DNA from: Candidatus Krumholzibacteriota bacterium
Lineage (GTDB): Bacteria > Krumholzibacteriota > Krumholzibacteriia > Krumholzibacteriales > Krumholzibacteriaceae
Direction of reading: 5' to 3'
DNA: 45,865 nucleotides
NCBI GenBank assembly: GCA_030609325.1
Contig: JAUWCL010000027.1
Location: 1-45,865, forward strand
The notes beneath the pieces are model-generated. The model worked only from the letters and a program-made list of their open reading frames with translations. It did no database searches and had not been told where the DNA came from. Shown here piece by piece: positions 15,865 through 21,896 of the stretch. Within the stretch, counting starts at the first letter, position 1, and every line of letters starts with the position of its first letter. The position numbers and the translations under genes are program-made.

Positions 15865-16425
15865 ATGCACGAGAAGACAGAGCTGACAGGATCGTTCATA
15901 ATAGCGCCGGTCCCGGTAGTCCTCGTCGCCTGCTCGCACGAGGAGCTAGGCCGGAATCTCCTCACGGTAGCATGGTGCGGTATCGACTGCTCCGATCCCG
16001 AGACGGTTCATGTCTCGATACGGCCCGAGAGACACTCCTACAGGATGATCTCGGAATCGGGCTGCTTTACGGTCAATATGCCGACGGTCGAGATGACCAG
16101 GATCGTCGACATATGCGGCGTGATGTCCGGCTCCGAGGGGGACAAGTTCGAGAAGACAGGGCTTACTGCCGCCCCGGCGAAGATCGTCCAGGCTCCCCTG
16201 GTGGCCGAATGCCCGATAAATCTCGAGTGCATGGTCAAGAACGTGATCCCCGTCGGCGTCCACCACATGTTCATCGGCGAGGTGGTTGCCAAGCACGCTG
16301 ACGAGGAGGTCCTGACAGACGGAAAGCTCGATTTCTCTAGGATACACCTGATTACATACGTGAACGGGGAATACTGGTCCCTCGGCCAGCCCGTTGGACG
16401 GTACGGCTTCTCGAAAAATACATGA
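15865..16425 (+). CDS. Flavin-reductase-like FMN-binding protein
   Basis: 186 aa. It matches the FMN-binding split-barrel family of flavin reductases and flavoredoxins: N-terminal PVPVVLVACSH, then NLLTVAWCGIDCSDPE, the SIRPERHSY motif near the flavin, and the C-terminal segment HHMFIGEVVAKHADEE. It probably carries FMN and takes part in electron transfer or flavin reduction with an unidentified partner. GAGAGGAAG lies just upstream of the ATG. The stop codon is 1 bp before the integrase ATG. Confidence 0.85.
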   Translation: MHEKTELTGSFIIAPVPVVLVACSHEELGRNLLTVAWCGIDCSDPETVHVSIRPERHSYRMISESGCFTVNMPTVEMTRIVDICGVMSGSEGDKFEKTGLTAAPAKIVQAPLVAECPINLECMVKNVIPVGVHHMFIGEVVAKHADEEVLTDGKLDFSRIHLITYVNGEYWSLGQPVGRYGFSKNT

Positions 16426-16426
16426 C

Positions 16427-17368
16427 ATGACGAAGAGACATGACGTCAAGGTATATCTGCAGCACATGACCGATTTCGTCAGGCACTTTGGGAGGAGTCC
16501 GTCCGAAATCGGGAAAAACGAGATCGTCCAGTACCTGCTGTATCTGACGGAAGACAAGAAGGTCTCGGTTGCATACAGGAACCAGGCCGTAAGCGCCCTG
16601 AAATTCTTCTACGCCAGGGTACTGAAGAGGCCTGTTGTCATCGAGGAGTTGCCTCGCCCAAAAAAGGAGTTCAGGCTTCCGGCCGTCCTGAGCAAGGAGG
16701 AAGTGAGCCGGCTGTTTGCCGCCGTGAGGAACAGGAAGCACCTTGCGATCCTGATGCTGGTCTATTCCTCGGGGCTGAGGGTGAGCGAAGTCGTCAGGCT
16801 GAAGCCCGAGGATATCGATGTCGAAAGAAGGCTGATCAGGGTGAGGGGAGCCAAGGGCCGGAAGGACCGGTATACGGTTCTGTCAGAGGTCGCGCTCGAT
16901 GTAGTCCGTGATTATTACATGTCGTGGAAACCGGAACATTTCCTCTTTCCCGGAAGCAGGAAAGGTTCTCATCTATCCACAAGATCGGTCCAGAGCGTCG
17001 TTTCCGAGGCCAGAAAAAGGGCCGGGATACAAAAGCAGTTCTCCACCCATGCCCTGAGGCACAGTTTTGCGACACACCTGCTTGAAAGCGGAACGGATCT
17101 ACGGTATATTCAGGAACTGCTGGGGCACAAGAGCGCCAGGACGACGCAGATCTATACACACGTAACGCGGAAGGACATAGCAAGGATCGTAAGCCCGCTG
17201 GACAGGATGATGGAGGGGGAAACAGCGGTAAAAAGAATGACATCCATTTTAGGCACAAACGCCGCTGACCTGACGATTGCCGCCAACCCCGCACCCAATA
17301 TTATCGCACCCAGCCTGCGCAAACGACCCAGAATTCGCCCAAACACTGAAAAAGACACACACAAATAA
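16427..17368 (+). CDS. Tyrosine recombinase, integron-integrase-like
   Basis: 313 aa. An N-terminal SAM-like core-binding domain (~5-66) precedes the catalytic domain, which has all residues: Arg118 (SSGLRVSE), Lys143/146 (GAKGRKDR), His208-x-x-Arg211 (HALRHSFATH), His234 (LLGHKS) and nucleophile Tyr243 (IYTHV). After the Tyr it carries VSPLDRM, a motif shared with IntI proteins. The Arg-to-His spacing (90 residues) is Xer-like; it lacks the ~35-residue extra segment of IntI. A 53-residue C-terminal tail follows SPLDR and ends 3 bp from the attI-like core. The start at 16427 has no good Shine-Dalgarno; translation may be coupled to the preceding gene. Confidence 0.88.
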   Translation: MTKRHDVKVYLQHMTDFVRHFGRSPSEIGKNEIVQYLLYLTEDKKVSVAYRNQAVSALKFFYARVLKRPVVIEELPRPKKEFRLPAVLSKEEVSRLFAAVRNRKHLAILMLVYSSGLRVSEVVRLKPEDIDVERRLIRVRGAKGRKDRYTVLSEVALDVVRDYYMSWKPEHFLFPGSRKGSHLSTRSVQSVVSEARKRAGIQKQFSTHALRHSFATHLLESGTDLRYIQELLGHKSARTTQIYTHVTRKDIARIVSPLDRMMEGETAVKRMTSILGTNAADLTIAANPAPNIIAPSLRKRPRIRPNTEKDTHK

Positions 17369-17371
17369 ACT

Positions 17372-17378
17372 GTTATAC
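17372..17378 (+). other. attI-like core site
   Basis: GTTATAC lies 3 bp after the integrase stop codon. It matches the GTTRRRY integron core at the first three, fourth, sixth and seventh positions and shares GTTAT with the ends of all four downstream repeats. Cutting after the G would mark the left edge of cassette 1. Confidence 0.6.
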
Positions 17379-17401
17379 GCAAGGCCACTAGGGAAGGAAT
17401 A

Positions 17402-17917
17402 ATGAATCGAAAATATTCCACACTACACTTCTTCGTAATAGCCATGGTATTGCTACTGCAATTCTCATGCAGCGATGATATATCTGACAACACGAGCAGT
17501 TGCAGCGGTGAACTGATTGTAGACTCTTTCTCCGTCTTTATTGTTCGGGGGGAGTATCCCGGTCTTGATGAACCGGCGGGCCTCTTCGTCTGGAAAGTTA
17601 TATATCGATTTGATGGTGCACCTGGACAAATCGATGCAATCGAATTTTCTCCAGATCCTCCTGGAGGAGTAATTGTTGGAAGTTCGAATATGGCTAATTA
17701 TAAAGATCCTTTGCCTGCGAATACTCCTCATATATATCAGGATGAGAATTGGTGCATTCGCGATTTTTCAGAGTATGATAGTGTCTTTGTGTATTTTGCT
17801 ATAGATGCGAAGTTTTGGCGTCAGATCGAATCTAGAATACAAGATAATATTATCATTGTTCCTTGTGGAGAAGATCGGTGGCACATAATAACGAAAATTG
17901 ATGTTCGTGATGAATAG
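17402..17917 (+). CDS. Cassette 1: lipoprotein of unknown function
   Basis: 171 aa. A lipoprotein signal peptide (FFVIAMVLLLQFSC, lipid Cys ~23) is followed by SDDISDN, a typical outer-membrane lipoprotein start. The mature part looks beta-rich (FIVRGEYPGLDEPAGLFVWK, DSVFVYFAIDAKFW) with no family I recognise. GGGAAGGA lies just before the ATG, which is only 24 bp into the cassette. The gene is clearly AT-rich compared with the integrase and NrdJ genes, consistent with transfer. It lacks an obvious own promoter and probably relies on read-through from the integrase side. Confidence 0.75.
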   Translation: MNRKYSTLHFFVIAMVLLLQFSCSDDISDNTSSCSGELIVDSFSVFIVRGEYPGLDEPAGLFVWKVIYRFDGAPGQIDAIEFSPDPPGGVIVGSSNMANYKDPLPANTPHIYQDENWCIRDFSEYDSVFVYFAIDAKFWRQIESRIQDNIIIVPCGEDRWHIITKIDVRDE

Positions 17918-17948
17918 TACTGAGAACTGATTGATTAGGTGGCCCAGC

Positions 17949-18086
17949 GTATCAGAGTGTTCGCGGCTGCAGGCCTTCGGCCTTTCGCGTAGATGGCCTT
18001 TGTCACGGCGGCCGCTAGAGCGCCCGCCACGCCAACCGGGCCTGGCGGCCCGGACGGCCACCTCGCGAACACGACCAATGTTATAT
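17949..18086 (+). repeat. attC-like repeat 1
   Basis: The outer arms GTGTTCGCG (17957-17965) and CGCGAACAC (18064-18072) are perfectly complementary. Internal palindromes include AGGCC-TTC-GGCCT and GGGCC-TGGC-GGCCC. It begins GTATCAGA (a degenerate inverse core) and ends with core GTTATAT (18080-18086). It is closely similar along its length to the three other copies. Confidence 0.8.
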
Positions 18087-18140
18087 GCAATGGCTACTCC
18101 GGCGAAAATATGCTATATTATGCAAGTAGGGGGTTCTGCT

Positions 18141-18722
18141 ATGCGCAATATTCCATTACTGATTATCCTTATTGGTTTTTCCATTTCTTCTTCCGTAATA
18201 TCGGAAGCCGTAGAAGTGAAACTGACCGATTTAACTGGATATTATTCTAGTACTTCAACGAATAGCTACTGTGAGTTCGTATTAGATATAACTCCAATAG
18301 AAGTATATGCTGTCTGGATTTATTTCTCAGGCTCAGTGAATGTTGGTGAAGAATATTGTCTTTTTGGTGATCCCCCACCAACGGGTCCTGATCCAGCGCC
18401 TATGGAATTTGTAATATACATGAGAGATAACGTTAGCTGTGACTTATGGTGGACTTCCTGTATCTCAGAGCTAGAATCCGGATCATTTGAATTCACATTA
18501 CTGTTCGAGCCTTTTCCGTTTGGGGAACCAACTTGGGAATTTATTTTATTGGGTGGTGACACTGTAGATTTTAATGCACATGCTATGATTTCGTTTCCCG
18601 AATGTTGGTATGAAGTTTATCCGAACGCAACAATTGAAGAAGCCACTCTCATGATTTATGGAAATTTTCCCATAGCAGTAGAAACATATACATGGGGAAG
18701 TATCAAATCTCTGTTCAAATAG
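18141..18722 (+). CDS. Cassette 2: secreted protein with C-terminal WGSIKSLFK tag
   Basis: About 193 aa. A signal peptide (MRNIPLLIILIGFSISSSV) is followed by a beta-rich, acidic and aromatic mature region with few Lys or Arg. Cys pairs suggest disulfides in the periplasm or outside the cell. No known family recognised. The protein ends TYTWGSIKSLFK, close to the ESSWGTIKKMMK end of the chromosomal protein at 9176-10162. The start is taken at 18141 with GGGGG upstream; the open frame back to 17931 runs through attC-like repeat 1 and is not coding. It is AT-rich like the other cassette genes. Confidence 0.75.
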   Translation: MRNIPLLIILIGFSISSSVISEAVEVKLTDLTGYYSSTSTNSYCEFVLDITPIEVYAVWIYFSGSVNVGEEYCLFGDPPPTGPDPAPMEFVIYMRDNVSCDLWWTSCISELESGSFEFTLLFEPFPFGEPTWEFILLGGDTVDFNAHAMISFPECWYEVYPNATIEEATLMIYGNFPIAVETYTWGSIKSLFK

Positions 18723-18736
18723 CCAAAAGAGCAGCC

Positions 18737-18875
18737 ACTGCAGAGTGTTCGCGGCTGCGGGCCTTTGGCCTTTCGCTCAGATGGCCTTTGTCACGGTGGC
18801 TGCTTTGGCGCCCGCCGCGCCAACCGGGCCTGGTGGCCCGGACGGCCACCTCGCGGGACACACGCAATGTTATCC
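18737..18875 (+). repeat. attC-like repeat 2
   Basis: Left arm GTGTTCGCG (18745-18753); right arm CGCGGGACAC (18852-18861), with one change and an extra base compared with repeat 1. It ends with core GTTATCC (18869-18875). The left core is the most decayed of the four (ACTGCAG). Compensatory changes inside (GGTGGC, CTGGTGGCC) hint that structure is kept. Confidence 0.78.
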
Positions 18876-18899
18876 GATCAGGCTGTTAGGTAAATAAAA

Positions 18900-19124
18900 A
18901 TGAAAGTTCTGTTTCGAACGCTGCTTGTTTTGGGTTTTGTGCTGGGGCTAGGAGCCTGTACTGAGAAGAAACCTGAGATTCCTAAAAAAGCACTGACACA
19001 GCAGCAGCGTGATAGTGTGTTGGCGGAGACACCGCTTCCTGGGGCGAAGGTCGTTGGGCGCGCAATAGAAGTTTCGGACTCGGCGTCGGTAAGAACTGAG
19101 AGATTAGATAGCCGGACTGAATAA
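18900..19124 (+). CDS. Cassette 3: small lipoprotein
   Basis: 74 aa. The signal peptide MKVLFRTLLVLGFVLGLGAC ends in a good lipobox (GLGAC, Cys20). The mature part is short, hydrophilic and Lys/Gln-rich (TEKKPEIPKKALTQQQRDS), then GAKVVGRAIEVSDSA. Function unknown. Cassette 3 is only 420 bp and contains nothing else. There is no convincing Shine-Dalgarno (GGTAAATAAAA precedes the ATG), so expression may be weak. Confidence 0.65.
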   Translation: MKVLFRTLLVLGFVLGLGACTEKKPEIPKKALTQQQRDSVLAETPLPGAKVVGRAIEVSDSASVRTERLDSRTE

Positions 19125-19154
19125 CGAGCGTTAGACTCTAGGGTGCAGACCGAC

Positions 19155-19295
19155 GTATAACAGAGGTGTTCGCGGCTACAGGCCTTCGGCCTTTCGCCGA
19201 GATGGCCTTTGTCACAGCGGCCGCTAGAGCGCCCGCCGCGCCAACCGGGTCTGGCGGCCAGGACGGCCACCCCGCTAACACTCACAATGTTATCT
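19155..19295 (+). repeat. attC-like repeat 3
   Basis: The only copy with an intact inverse core, GTATAAC (19155-19161), which mirrors the attI-like GTTATAC. Left arm GTGTTCGCG (19166-19174), right arm CGCTAACAC with one change. It ends with core GTTATCT (19289-19295). Confidence 0.8.
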
Positions 19296-19327
19296 GAACG
19301 GCCGGGAATCGGTTGAAAAAAAGAGCC

Positions 19328-19353
19328 TTGACAGATATGCATACATGATGCAT
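19328..19353 (+). promoter_or_regulatory. vapBC promoter and putative operator
   Basis: A consensus -35 TTGACA (19328-19333) lies just upstream of ATGCAT-ACATG-ATGCAT (19337-19353), two palindromic hexamers 5 bp apart. The repeat overlaps the expected -10 region, as in autorepressed toxin-antitoxin operons (family knowledge). The VapB ATG is 11 bp downstream. Confidence 0.55.
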
Positions 19354-19363
19354 GCTGATACAT

Positions 19364-19558
19364 ATGAGAACTACACTGAATATTGACGATGATCTGATCC
19401 GCAAGGCAGCGAAGATGACAGGGGTCAGCGAGAAGACTTCCCTGGTGCGCCTAGGGCTCGAAGCACTGATCGCTCTTGAAAGTGCGAGAAGGCTAGCAGC
19501 TCTCGGAGGAACAGAGAAGGATCTTGGCCCTATCCGTCGCAGGCGAACGAGTTCGTGA
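19364..19558 (+). CDS. vapB: Cassette 4: VapB-type antitoxin
   Basis: About 64 aa. The N-terminus MRTTLNIDDDLIRKAAKMTG is a typical ribbon-helix-helix DNA-binding start of VapB antitoxins. The rest (GVSEKTSLVRLGLEALI...) matches the VapB dimerisation and toxin-binding part. It should neutralise the VapC toxin and repress its own promoter by binding the adjacent repeat. The start at 19364 is chosen to match the family. The stop overlaps the GTG/ATG region of vapC, indicating translational coupling. Confidence 0.88.
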   Translation: MRTTLNIDDDLIRKAAKMTGVSEKTSLVRLGLEALIALESARRLAALGGTEKDLGPIRRRRTSS

Positions 19559-19560
19559 GC

Positions 19561-19917
19561 ATGATTCTGGCTGATACATCTGTCTGGGTCGATCATCTTC
19601 GTATGGGGAACAAGCGACTAGCTGCTTTCCTGAACGAAGGTATCGTACTGTGTCATCCTTTTATAATCGGGGAATTGGCCTGCGGGAATCTTAAAAACAG
19701 AGACAAGATACTCGGCATGCTTGCTTCACTCCCCTCTATATCTGTCGCTGAGCATGACGAAGTTCTTGATTTTATCTCTCGATACAAGTTTCAGGGGAAG
19801 GGTGTAGGGTGGATTGATGCTCATATGTTGGCATCTACTTTTCTGGCAAAAAGCCGAATCTGGACTCTCGACAAATCTTTGCTAAAGATTGCTAAAGACC
19901 TGAAGGTCTCAATATAG
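19561..19917 (+). CDS. vapC: Cassette 4: VapC-type PIN-domain toxin
   Basis: 118 aa. The PIN domain has the four acidic residues for metal binding: Asp5 (MILADTSVWVDHL), Glu38 (IIGELACGN), Asp86 (VGWIDAHML) and Asp104 (IWTLDKSL). VapC toxins are RNases that cut tRNA or rRNA. Start ATG 19561 gives the canonical N-terminus; GTG 19555 overlaps the vapB stop and is an alternative. Toxin-antitoxin cassettes are common in large integrons and are thought to stabilise the array. A related vapC tail survives at 21112-21204. Confidence 0.92.
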   Translation: MILADTSVWVDHLRMGNKRLAAFLNEGIVLCHPFIIGELACGNLKNRDKILGMLASLPSISVAEHDEVLDFISRYKFQGKGVGWIDAHMLASTFLAKSRIWTLDKSLLKIAKDLKVSI

Positions 19918-19950
19918 ACAAGAACAAGGTGTTTTAGCAGGCGGCCATTC

Positions 19951-20080
19951 GGATCAGAGTGTTCGCGGCTATAGGCCTACGGCCGAGATGGCCTTTGTCA
20001 CGGCGGCCGCTTAGGCGCCCGCCGCGCCAACCGGCCTGGCGGCCCGGACGGCCACCTCGCGAACACGACCAATGTTATAT
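19951..20080 (+). repeat. attC-like repeat 4
   Basis: Perfect arms GTGTTCGCG (19959-19967) and CGCGAACAC (20058-20066), ending with core GTTATAT (20074-20080). It is about 8 bp shorter than repeat 1 because the GGCCTTTCGC segment after the first internal hairpin is missing. The left core is GGATCAG. Confidence 0.8.
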
Positions 20081-20104
20081 GAAATAGCGCGCTTTAATAA
20101 AATC

Positions 20105-20133
20105 TTGAAATTAAAGGATGAGTGTTCTACGAT
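20105..20133 (+). promoter_or_regulatory. Putative promoter of the SUMF1-like gene
   Basis: TTGAAA (20105-20110), a 17-nt spacer and TACGAT (20128-20133) lie just inside the fifth unit. The leader to the ATG at 20193 is about 50 nt, with AAAGGAGG before the start. Confidence 0.45.
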
Positions 20134-20192
20134 ACTTGATGCGTAAGCAACAGAGGGACTGAAAGCCAAATATTATAACAAAGGAGGGCAAG

Positions 20193-21113
20193 ATGAGAAA
20201 ATTTCTCACTCTATTTGTCATGGTTATTATTGTCTCTGCTTCATTCTTTAACTGCAGTGATGATAAAGCAACAAATCCAGCACCTGAAGACGATGATTAT
20301 GAATTGATTACAGTCCCCGCAACAACCGGCTATCTGATGGGATATGAAGCAGTTGCAACGCCCGTCCACACAGTATCCCTGGATGAGTTCCAGATTGGGA
20401 AATACGAGGTGACTTACGAGCTTTGGTTGGATGTCAAGACTTGGGCTGAGTCGAATGGATATACCTTTGTGAATGCTGGCCGTCAAGGATCTGATGTCAG
20501 CACATCAACAGACCAGCATCCTGTAACAATGATAAGCTGGAGGGATTGTATAGCCTGGTGCAATGCCTATTCAGAGAAGGAGGGGCTGACACCAGTATAT
20601 TATACCACTTTGGAACAAACGACAGCATACCGTAATTCATCAATGGATGGAGATATAGGCAATGATTGTGTAGATCGGGACGCAGATGGGTTCAGGTTGC
20701 CGACAGAGGCGGAGTGGGAATACGCTGCCAGATATATAGATGGTACAAGTGTCTCTTCGGGGGCTCAGCACAGCGGATATAATTTAGACTCCGATATAGG
20801 AGATTGTGCTTGGTATGTTGATAATTCAGATGAAAGCACCCATCCTGTGGGGCAGCTTCAGATGAACAGTTTAGGTGCAAAAGATATGGCCGGCAACGTA
20901 TGGGAATGGTGTTGGGACTGGTATGCAGTTTATTTAAGCACTTCTCAGGACAATCCATTGGGTTCTGCTAGTGGAACTCAACGTGTCCTTCGCGGCGCCA
21001 GCTGGGGAGATAATGCTTTCTACTGCCGTGCTGCGTATCGCTACAAATACGACCCGACTTCCCTGTACTCCCGCAGTGGGTTCCGGGTTTGTCGTGGTGG
21101 CTCTGCCCTCTAG
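20193..21113 (+). CDS. SUMF1/FGE-domain lipoprotein (fifth cassette-like unit)
   Basis: 306 aa. A lipoprotein signal (VIIVSASFFNC, Cys21) precedes a formylglycine-generating-enzyme/sulfatase-modifying-factor fold at ~40-305. Visible motifs: GYLMGYEA, YEVTYELWLD, HPVTMISWRDCIAWCNAY, FRLPTEAEWEYAAR, GAKDMAGNVWEW and C-terminal RVLRGASW...SGFRVCRGG. Of the two Cys used by true FGEs, only the second (FYC) is present, so catalysis is doubtful; many such domains act as binding modules. The last ~120 bp are richer in G and C and in NNC codons than the rest. AAAGGAGG lies 5 nt before the ATG. No attC-like repeat follows; the stop codon runs straight into a vapC relic. Confidence 0.85.
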   Translation: MRKFLTLFVMVIIVSASFFNCSDDKATNPAPEDDDYELITVPATTGYLMGYEAVATPVHTVSLDEFQIGKYEVTYELWLDVKTWAESNGYTFVNAGRQGSDVSTSTDQHPVTMISWRDCIAWCNAYSEKEGLTPVYYTTLEQTTAYRNSSMDGDIGNDCVDRDADGFRLPTEAEWEYAARYIDGTSVSSGAQHSGYNLDSDIGDCAWYVDNSDESTHPVGQLQMNSLGAKDMAGNVWEWCWDWYAVYLSTSQDNPLGSASGTQRVLRGASWGDNAFYCRAAYRYKYDPTSLYSRSGFRVCRGGSAL

Positions 21114-21204
21114 TCTTCTTTGGGCTCTTGGATTCCTGGACCCGATTTGGACTCTAGACAGATCCTTGCTCAAGGTGGTAAAAAGTCTCAAGATATCAAT
21201 ATAG
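21112..21204 (+). pseudogene. vapC 3' relic
   Basis: The frame reads FLDPIWTLDRSLLKVVKS-LKISI-stop, closely matching the last ~24 residues of the VapC at 19561 (SRIWTLDKSLLKIAKDLKVSI). Upstream residues SSLLWALG fit a diverged version of HMLASTFLA. The rest of the toxin and any antitoxin are missing. It probably marks a deletion that removed a vapBC cassette body and the attC of the fifth unit. Confidence 0.75.
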
Positions 21205-21278
21205 ATAAGCAACGTGCGATTGCATCGTGTTTAGAAAAACAGTGTACACATATAGAACGTTGGAATACGTAGAAATCG

Positions 21279-21896
21279 ATGTGCTTTATAATGATAATTG
21301 CTTTCACAGCGGTGATCCTCAGTATGTGCTTACTTGGCGGGTGCGCCAAGCCCTACTCCGAGCCCAATCTTCTGCCCGAAGATGAGACCGAACAAGAAGA
21401 ATACTCCATCTATTCACTCAGCATGGAGCATATCTATCTGCGCAACCTGCTCTCGCATAACAAGAGCGAAATCAAATCGATCGTCATTATTTCTCAGACC
21501 AATCCGCTTAATGAATACTTGAGGAACGAGTTTATCGACGACCTCGAGAACAAGGGTATACCGGAAGAAGTTATCGAGGACTGGAGAAAGGAAAACAAAT
21601 CCACAAGGCTTCTTCAACGGAAATTCGATCTGTCGTACGAGTACCACCTTGTGACAAGAACCGAACTGGATGGGTATGAAGCCGATAGTTTCTTCAGCGA
21701 GTTTTTCAGGCGATATCCGGATTCAAACGGATTGATATCGGTCTCGAAGATCGGATTTGACAAGGCGAAGAATACGGCATTGATCCACGTAATTCACAGT
21801 TATGGCACACTCGGAGCGAGTTTCAACTTCATTGCCCTGGAGAGGACTGACGGCGCCTGGGGTATCGTGCGGAGAATATCGACTAGTGGTTTGTAG
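21279..21896 (+). CDS. Lipoprotein of unknown function
   Basis: About 205 aa. Signal peptide with lipobox LLGGC (Cys ~22), followed by AKPYSEPNLLPEDE. The mature part is helical then beta: EHIYLRNLLSHNKSEIKS, LENKGIPEEVIEDWRKENK, then a C-terminal strand region LISVSKIGFDKAKNTALIHVIHSY and WGIVRRIS, which looks like a stand-alone ligand-binding domain of unknown family. Start is ATG 21279 or 21291; neither has a clear Shine-Dalgarno. This is the first gene with the chromosome's normal base composition after the cassette island. Confidence 0.7.
   Translation: MCFIMIIAFTAVILSMCLLGGCAKPYSEPNLLPEDETEQEEYSIYSLSMEHIYLRNLLSHNKSEIKSIVIISQTNPLNEYLRNEFIDDLENKGIPEEVIEDWRKENKSTRLLQRKFDLSYEYHLVTRTELDGYEADSFFSEFFRRYPDSNGLISVSKIGFDKAKNTALIHVIHSYGTLGASFNFIALERTDGAWGIVRRISTSGL

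Follow-up and report, generated by a model that had tools for sequence, protein, structure and literature searches.

Can a gene-cassette array be served by an integrase that lacks the I2 insertion? The question is raised by a stretch of 45,865 nucleotides from Candidatus Krumholzibacteriota bacterium (GenBank assembly GCA_030609325.1, contig JAUWCL010000027.1, positions 1 to 45,865 of the forward strand; hereafter the window), in which a tyrosine recombinase gene is followed by a putative attI site and four cassettes. In the genome concerned (G000; 2.63 Mb, 95% complete) the window is contig C30. According to published work (PMC7790495, PMC7784347, PMC9668308), cassette capture requires I2, no other proteins have it, and it serves as the filter by which integron integrases are defined; it is regarded as the innovation that enabled integrons, and arrays that follow cassette logic perfectly but lie beside I2-less enzymes make this rule testable. 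The open-access literature (subscription papers lay outside the search) contained no report of arrays served by I2-less integrases, and no paper on a Krumholzibacteriota integron was found in it. An original prediction had described the locus as an inverse integron with an integrase outside the IntI type in an uncultured lineage, and all these points held up. We consider it probable that the locus represents a sedentary chromosomal integron in Krumholzibacteriota and that its recombinase is not IntI, being instead a sister-type tyrosine recombinase without I2.

Discrete cassettes joined at G/TTAT

The integrase stop codon (17366-17368) is followed by ACT, by GTTATAC (17372-17378), and by four units in the same orientation, with one open reading frame (ORF) per unit except for the VapBC pair in the fourth. 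Each unit is closed by a repeat of about 130-140 bp with the 3′ end AATGTTAT (GTTAT; cores at 18080, 18869, 19289, and 20074). All of this had been predicted correctly to the base. Repeats 1 and 4 have the arms GTGTTCGCG/CGCGAACAC in perfect form, and repeats 2 and 3 have altered versions. The window copies are 83-89% identical in nucleotides. The repeats are not scattered, since the whole genome contains only seven, four in the window and three in a second array, all head to tail. The second array has no integrase, begins at ATACTGTTATGCG, and is split between contigs C49 and C8, which share an exact overlap of 141 bp. An IS200/IS605-like transposase gene (L009:57-464, at the C49-C8 junction) lies inside a lipoprotein cassette of this array, and the assembly is broken there.

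As long as a cassette is a free circle, its attC site is complete, and the attC 5′ arm has its pairing partner at the start of that cassette rather than at the start of the one that follows in the array. For 30 cassettes from seven arrays (the window, the second array, G001, G008, G015, and two in G020, all members of the same order), each attC 5′ arm was compared with all cassette starts and the matches were scored. In 24 cassettes the own start was the best of all 30, and in 27 it scored higher than the start of the following cassette; the own-start scores added up to 328, against 204 (standard deviation 8) in permutations, none of which reached it (0/20,000). In cassette 1, for instance, the start GTTATACGCAAGGCCAC stands against the cassette's own attC arm, CTGATACGCTGGGCCAC in reverse reading. 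GTTAT accounts for 36 of 38 cores, and the form GTTATNYG is a relaxed version of GTTRRRY. Own-start matching fixes the junction at G/TTAT, where it had been predicted, and refutes a casual repeat family. The window units are true gene cassettes, discrete and joined at this point, and the claim that they are bounded by attC sites is borne out by their own-start self-complementarity. Generic attC scans were near noise except at the arrays, and the own-start test was used as the main criterion.

The bottom strands of all four window attC sites fold far below shuffled sequences (z from -3.6 to -5.5), as do those of eight attC sites of G020 and G008 (z from -3.0 to -6.6). For two sites of the second array, the strand folded was the attC top strand (z = -1.66, weak, and z = -3.86, good). 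The R'' sequence is lost in several attC sites of G000, and a search of the region against Rfam gave no match. Between G000, G015, and G020 the attC sequences diverge strongly while the stem is kept, as expected for sites recognized by structure.

The putative attI sequence CACAAATAAACTGTTAT is conserved 3′ of the integrase in relatives, with its motif enriched (16 vs. 1.5 in shuffles), and the order flavin reductase-integrase-attI is common to them. In nine genomes a core of C or G plus TGTTATNCG, or cGTTATG in G009 and G015, stands 3′ of the integrase, and the content beyond it differs, which agrees with the predicted attI core. G000 and G001 are syntenic on both sides of the integron; between their cassette proteins no homology was detected at 1e-6, save an ORF inside the attC repeats. 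Immediately past the core, different DNA is present in G002, a congener with 88% identity in the integrase. Homologous cassettes recur, in different positions, between families of the order. Homologues of the cassette 4 VapBC pair lie behind the last attC of a G020 array (79 and 62% identity), an ORF6N-like gene recurs across families in another position (74% identity), a two-gene unit is common to G001 and G020 (65 and 83% identity), a pair of genes for 397 and 121 amino acids is common to G015 and G020 (57 and 58% identity), and a homologue of the FGE-domain lipoprotein of the window (77% identity) is found between attC-type repeats in G015 (contig C12). An identical array order in relatives, which would have counted against recombination, is thus not what the sister comparison shows; cassette content differs among G000, G001, and G002.

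A tyrosine recombinase without I2

The integrase passes the NCBIfam model NF040815 (score 228.7, cut-off 220) and fails TIGR02249 (score 217.4, cut-off 265). In the alignment (A3) the catalytic residues R118, K143, H208, R211, H234, and Y243 are kept, so that the tyrosine recombinase set R, K, HxxR, H, Y is complete, and I2 is absent, with about 31 + 10 columns missing; at this gap the crystal sequence of IntI4 (2a3v) carries about 40 extra residues. IntI is monophyletic in the trees (support 100/99 and 100/100), with the window integrase outside it, in agreement with the predicted non-IntI type. The Krumholzibacteriota enzymes make up a different group, near integrases that accompany IS91 elements, and XerC/XerD are separate (100/99 to 100/100); the trees leave the order among these groups open. 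XerC/XerD-like genes are encoded separately in G000. A single-sequence AlphaFold model of the integrase was poor (pLDDT 53); the alignment-based model (pLDDT 81.5) is about equally similar to IntI4 and XerA, so the fold does not decide the family. By the defining feature that was tested, the enzyme lies outside IntI, and its array would work like that of an integron. The integrase is present in nine of 80 genomes of the phylum, all nine in two families of one order.

The gene is directed at the array, as predicted. This inverse layout is less special than had been supposed: it has been published for Treponema (PMC3607928), and at ordinary IntI loci of the same order (L117, L119, and L075) the integrase also points toward the cassettes, whose cores are GTTRG (GTTAG or GTTGG).

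Relative to G002, about 160 bp are missing from the window between the flavin reductase stop codon and integrase codon 23, the first 22 or so codons included, so that the gene now lacks the region of its own promoter as well as its start and first helix. An ATG overlapping the deletion junction could start a shortened protein, and the missing stretch may also be an assembly error in this metagenome-assembled genome. The original wording, a functional or recent integron, stands insofar as the integron is real; its functionality is doubtful for the G000 copy because the 5′ end and promoter region of the integrase are lost.

Which enzyme serves the arrays

A search for the window attC type covered every one of the 25 genomes in the order. 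The type was present in six of the nine that have the I2-less integrase and in none of the 16 that lack this enzyme (Fisher's exact test, P = 4.7e-4); when the G015 type is counted too, the former fraction rises to 7/9 (P = 7.5e-5). Canonical IntI is present in five of the 16 genomes that lack the I2-less integrase, and all 16 are without the window attC type. A broken canonical IntI gene was observed in G000 at C22:110173-110885 (L079). In G020 (97% complete, in two contigs) every one of several IntI copies is truncated or has an internal deletion, yet the I2-less integrase is intact and at least 13 attC-like sites lie behind it within 18 kb (L081, G020:C1:872000-891900, with L116); this is the best candidate array for experiments.

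We infer that the I2-less enzyme is the cassette recombinase and that folded single strands are its substrate. The integrase gene is directed at attI, the core of which (GTTATNCG) lies immediately 3′ of the gene, and each cassette would be a circle that carries a single attC and enters or leaves the array at G/TTAT. Cleavage would most likely take place on the folded attC bottom strand, and the junction would then be resolved by replication or another route independent of I2. Several points weigh against this interpretation. I2 has been published as necessary for cassette capture, and its deletion abolishes the activity of IntI1 (PMC7790495, PMC7784347). To judge from its sequence, the 5′-truncated window copy may be inactive and its array now frozen. 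The genomes that enter the co-occurrence counts are related, with sampling that is not independent, and metagenome-assembled genomes are incomplete; both weaken the statistics, although the counts point consistently in one direction. Finally, G008, G009, and G015 carry an intact IntI in addition to the I2-less integrase, so IntI could act in trans there.

The last point leads to a different account, in which a canonical IntI encoded elsewhere serves the arrays in trans, now or formerly, and the I2-less recombinase is a passenger, e.g., an IS91 companion that came to lie beside attI. Genuine IntI genes in three genomes and the broken one in G000 suit it, as do the diverse attC sites that IntI is known to use and the membership of IS91-companion integrases in the same broad group as the window enzyme. 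However, arrays or attI-cassette junctions persist in G001, G002, G007, and G022, where no IntI above the cut-off was found, and in G000 and G020, where IntI is broken; the window attC type does not occur in IntI genomes without the I2-less integrase, and the cores of IntI arrays in this order are GTTRG, not GTTAT. A passenger would also have to be reconciled with an attI conserved 3′ of the I2-less integrase every time, with neighbours that are a flavin reductase gene and cassettes and no adjoining IS91 transposase, and with the same layout in two unrelated viral records (L123 and L132, below). We regard this account as unlikely.

If the I2-less integrase does act on the arrays, it might instead recombine double-stranded sites by Xer-like exchange of two strands, the attC hairpins being a by-product of inverted binding sites. 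The enzyme has no I2, to which the handling of single strands is ascribed (PMC7790495). Its fold is as close to XerA as to IntI4, but the two strands of attC are not equivalent (bottom z = -5.83 vs. top z = -2.16 at a second site folded on both strands, and the same asymmetry at attC3; Table 1), and the hairpin is kept despite wide variation in attC sequence. Two-strand exchange deserves attention as a minority possibility. It is extremely improbable, on the other hand, that the repeats are a dispersed family (REP-like or a nonautonomous element) lying between genes by chance and not recombination sites. They are GC-rich, hairpin-forming, and alike between copies, as such a family would be; yet all seven copies are confined to the two arrays, their 5′ arms match own cassette starts hundreds of bases upstream, and unlike repeat sequences play the same part in G015, G020, and L123. 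The permutations of the own-start test (0/20,000) led us to reject a dispersed family.

Related systems and layout of the locus

Canonical integrons (IntI; e.g., class 1 and the Vibrio chromosomal type) resemble the window in having the integrase by attI, one-way cassettes each with an attC, the G/TTRRRY junction, a foldable bottom strand, and cassettes of toxin-antitoxin and lipoprotein or orphan genes. They differ in that the window integrase has no I2, scores under the TIGR02249 cut-off, falls outside the IntI clade, and is transcribed toward the array, with GTTAT cores. The inverse integrons of Treponema, compared here by description only, share the transcription of the integrase toward attI in the cassette direction, but their enzyme is treated as IntI in the literature; an I2-less relative of the window integrase with 47% identity occurs in a Treponema record (L050), with no array within reach. 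The recombinases that accompany IS91 (e.g., Bradyrhizobium XH83_RS35880) belong to the I2-less group and have the SPLD-type C-terminus; unlike the window enzyme, they adjoin an IS91 transposase gene and have neither attI nor cassettes. XerC/XerD and archaeal XerA share the fold, the catalytic residues, and the NF040815 model, whereas the trees split off XerC/XerD (100/100) and the window enzyme has an array and attI.

A search of viral contigs with the integrase alignment returned unrelated I2-less enzymes in IMG/VR records (L123, L125, L127, and L132). In L123 an attI-like core (GTTATGCG) stands behind an integrase of 341 amino acids; five cassettes follow, their attC sites are classical, and own-start matches were obtained in 5/5 (scores 10-15). 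L132 is arranged in the same way and has three cassettes. L127, where the integrase is incomplete, is a probable further case, as is L125, where the repeats end in ACATTA, possibly another core, and own-start matching is weak. About 75 ordinary phage/viral or Xer-type integrases, examined in the same way, served as a negative control, with hardly any own-start pairs and not a single chain. A relative with 48% identity in Persicobacter (L085) has no array. The window integron apparently belongs to a wider class with I2-less integrases. We lean, by a little, toward a separate integron class spanning several phyla, whose recombinases never had or have lost I2, recombine folded attC without it, and may preserve a state that preceded IntI; integrases of this kind are natural candidates for the missing ancestral state. 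If so, current software would score their arrays as clusters of attC sites lacking integron integrases (CALIN), and we suggest that some arrays described as integrase-less have an integrase that was filtered out.

On a Klebsiella plasmid (NZ_CP061701.1; L087:4001-4870; see also CP006657.1, NZ_CP083462.1, and NZ_CP084543.1), a 5′-truncated I2-less integrase gene whose product is 42% identical lies directly upstream of blaVEB-3. Integrase and blaVEB-3 join at the GTTAGCGG core, where the veb matches of the other plasmids start, which hints that a veb cassette formerly stood behind an I2-less integrase.

Table 1 Features of the integron and its flanks in the window
Feature	Position	Strand	Remarks
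Flavin-reductase-like gene, conserved left integron flank	15865-16425	+	Pfam PF01613; also upstream of the integrase in G001, G002, G008, G009
Tyrosine recombinase without I2 insertion, 5′-truncated in G000	16427-17368	+	PF00589, 151 bits
Putative attI	17317-17378	+	CGCAAA-type repeats starting at -55 and -12; core GTTATAC at 17372-17378
Cassette 1: lipoprotein ORF (17402-17917) and attC1	17373-18080	+	Own-start score 10 vs. 6 for next cassette; rank 1
attC1	17943-18086	+	Bottom-strand fold z = -5.46
Cassette 2: secreted-protein ORF (18141-18722) and attC2	18081-18869	+	Own-start score 10 vs. 5
attC2	18734-18875	+	Bottom-strand fold z = -3.63
Cassette 3: small lipoprotein ORF (18900-19124) and attC3	18870-19289	+	Own-start match uninformative (6 vs. 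7)
attC3, R'' GTATAAC intact	19153-19295	+	Bottom strand z = -4.57 vs. top strand z = -1.80
Cassette 4: VapB antitoxin (19352-19558), VapC toxin (19555-19917), and attC4	19290-20074	+	Own-start score 9 vs. 6; rank 1
attC4	19944-20080	+	Bottom-strand fold z = -5.34
Decayed fifth unit, no attC	20075-21209	+	FGE-sulfatase-domain lipoprotein at 20193-21113 (PF03781); vapC 3′ remnant at 21145-21209; direct repeat D5
Lipoprotein gene, conserved right integron flank	21279-21896	+	64% identity to the gene ending the G001 array

The Pfam matches of cassette 4 are PF09957, over its cut-off, and PF01850, slightly under it. With the decayed fifth unit (Table 1), the true window array probably extends to about 21.1 kb.

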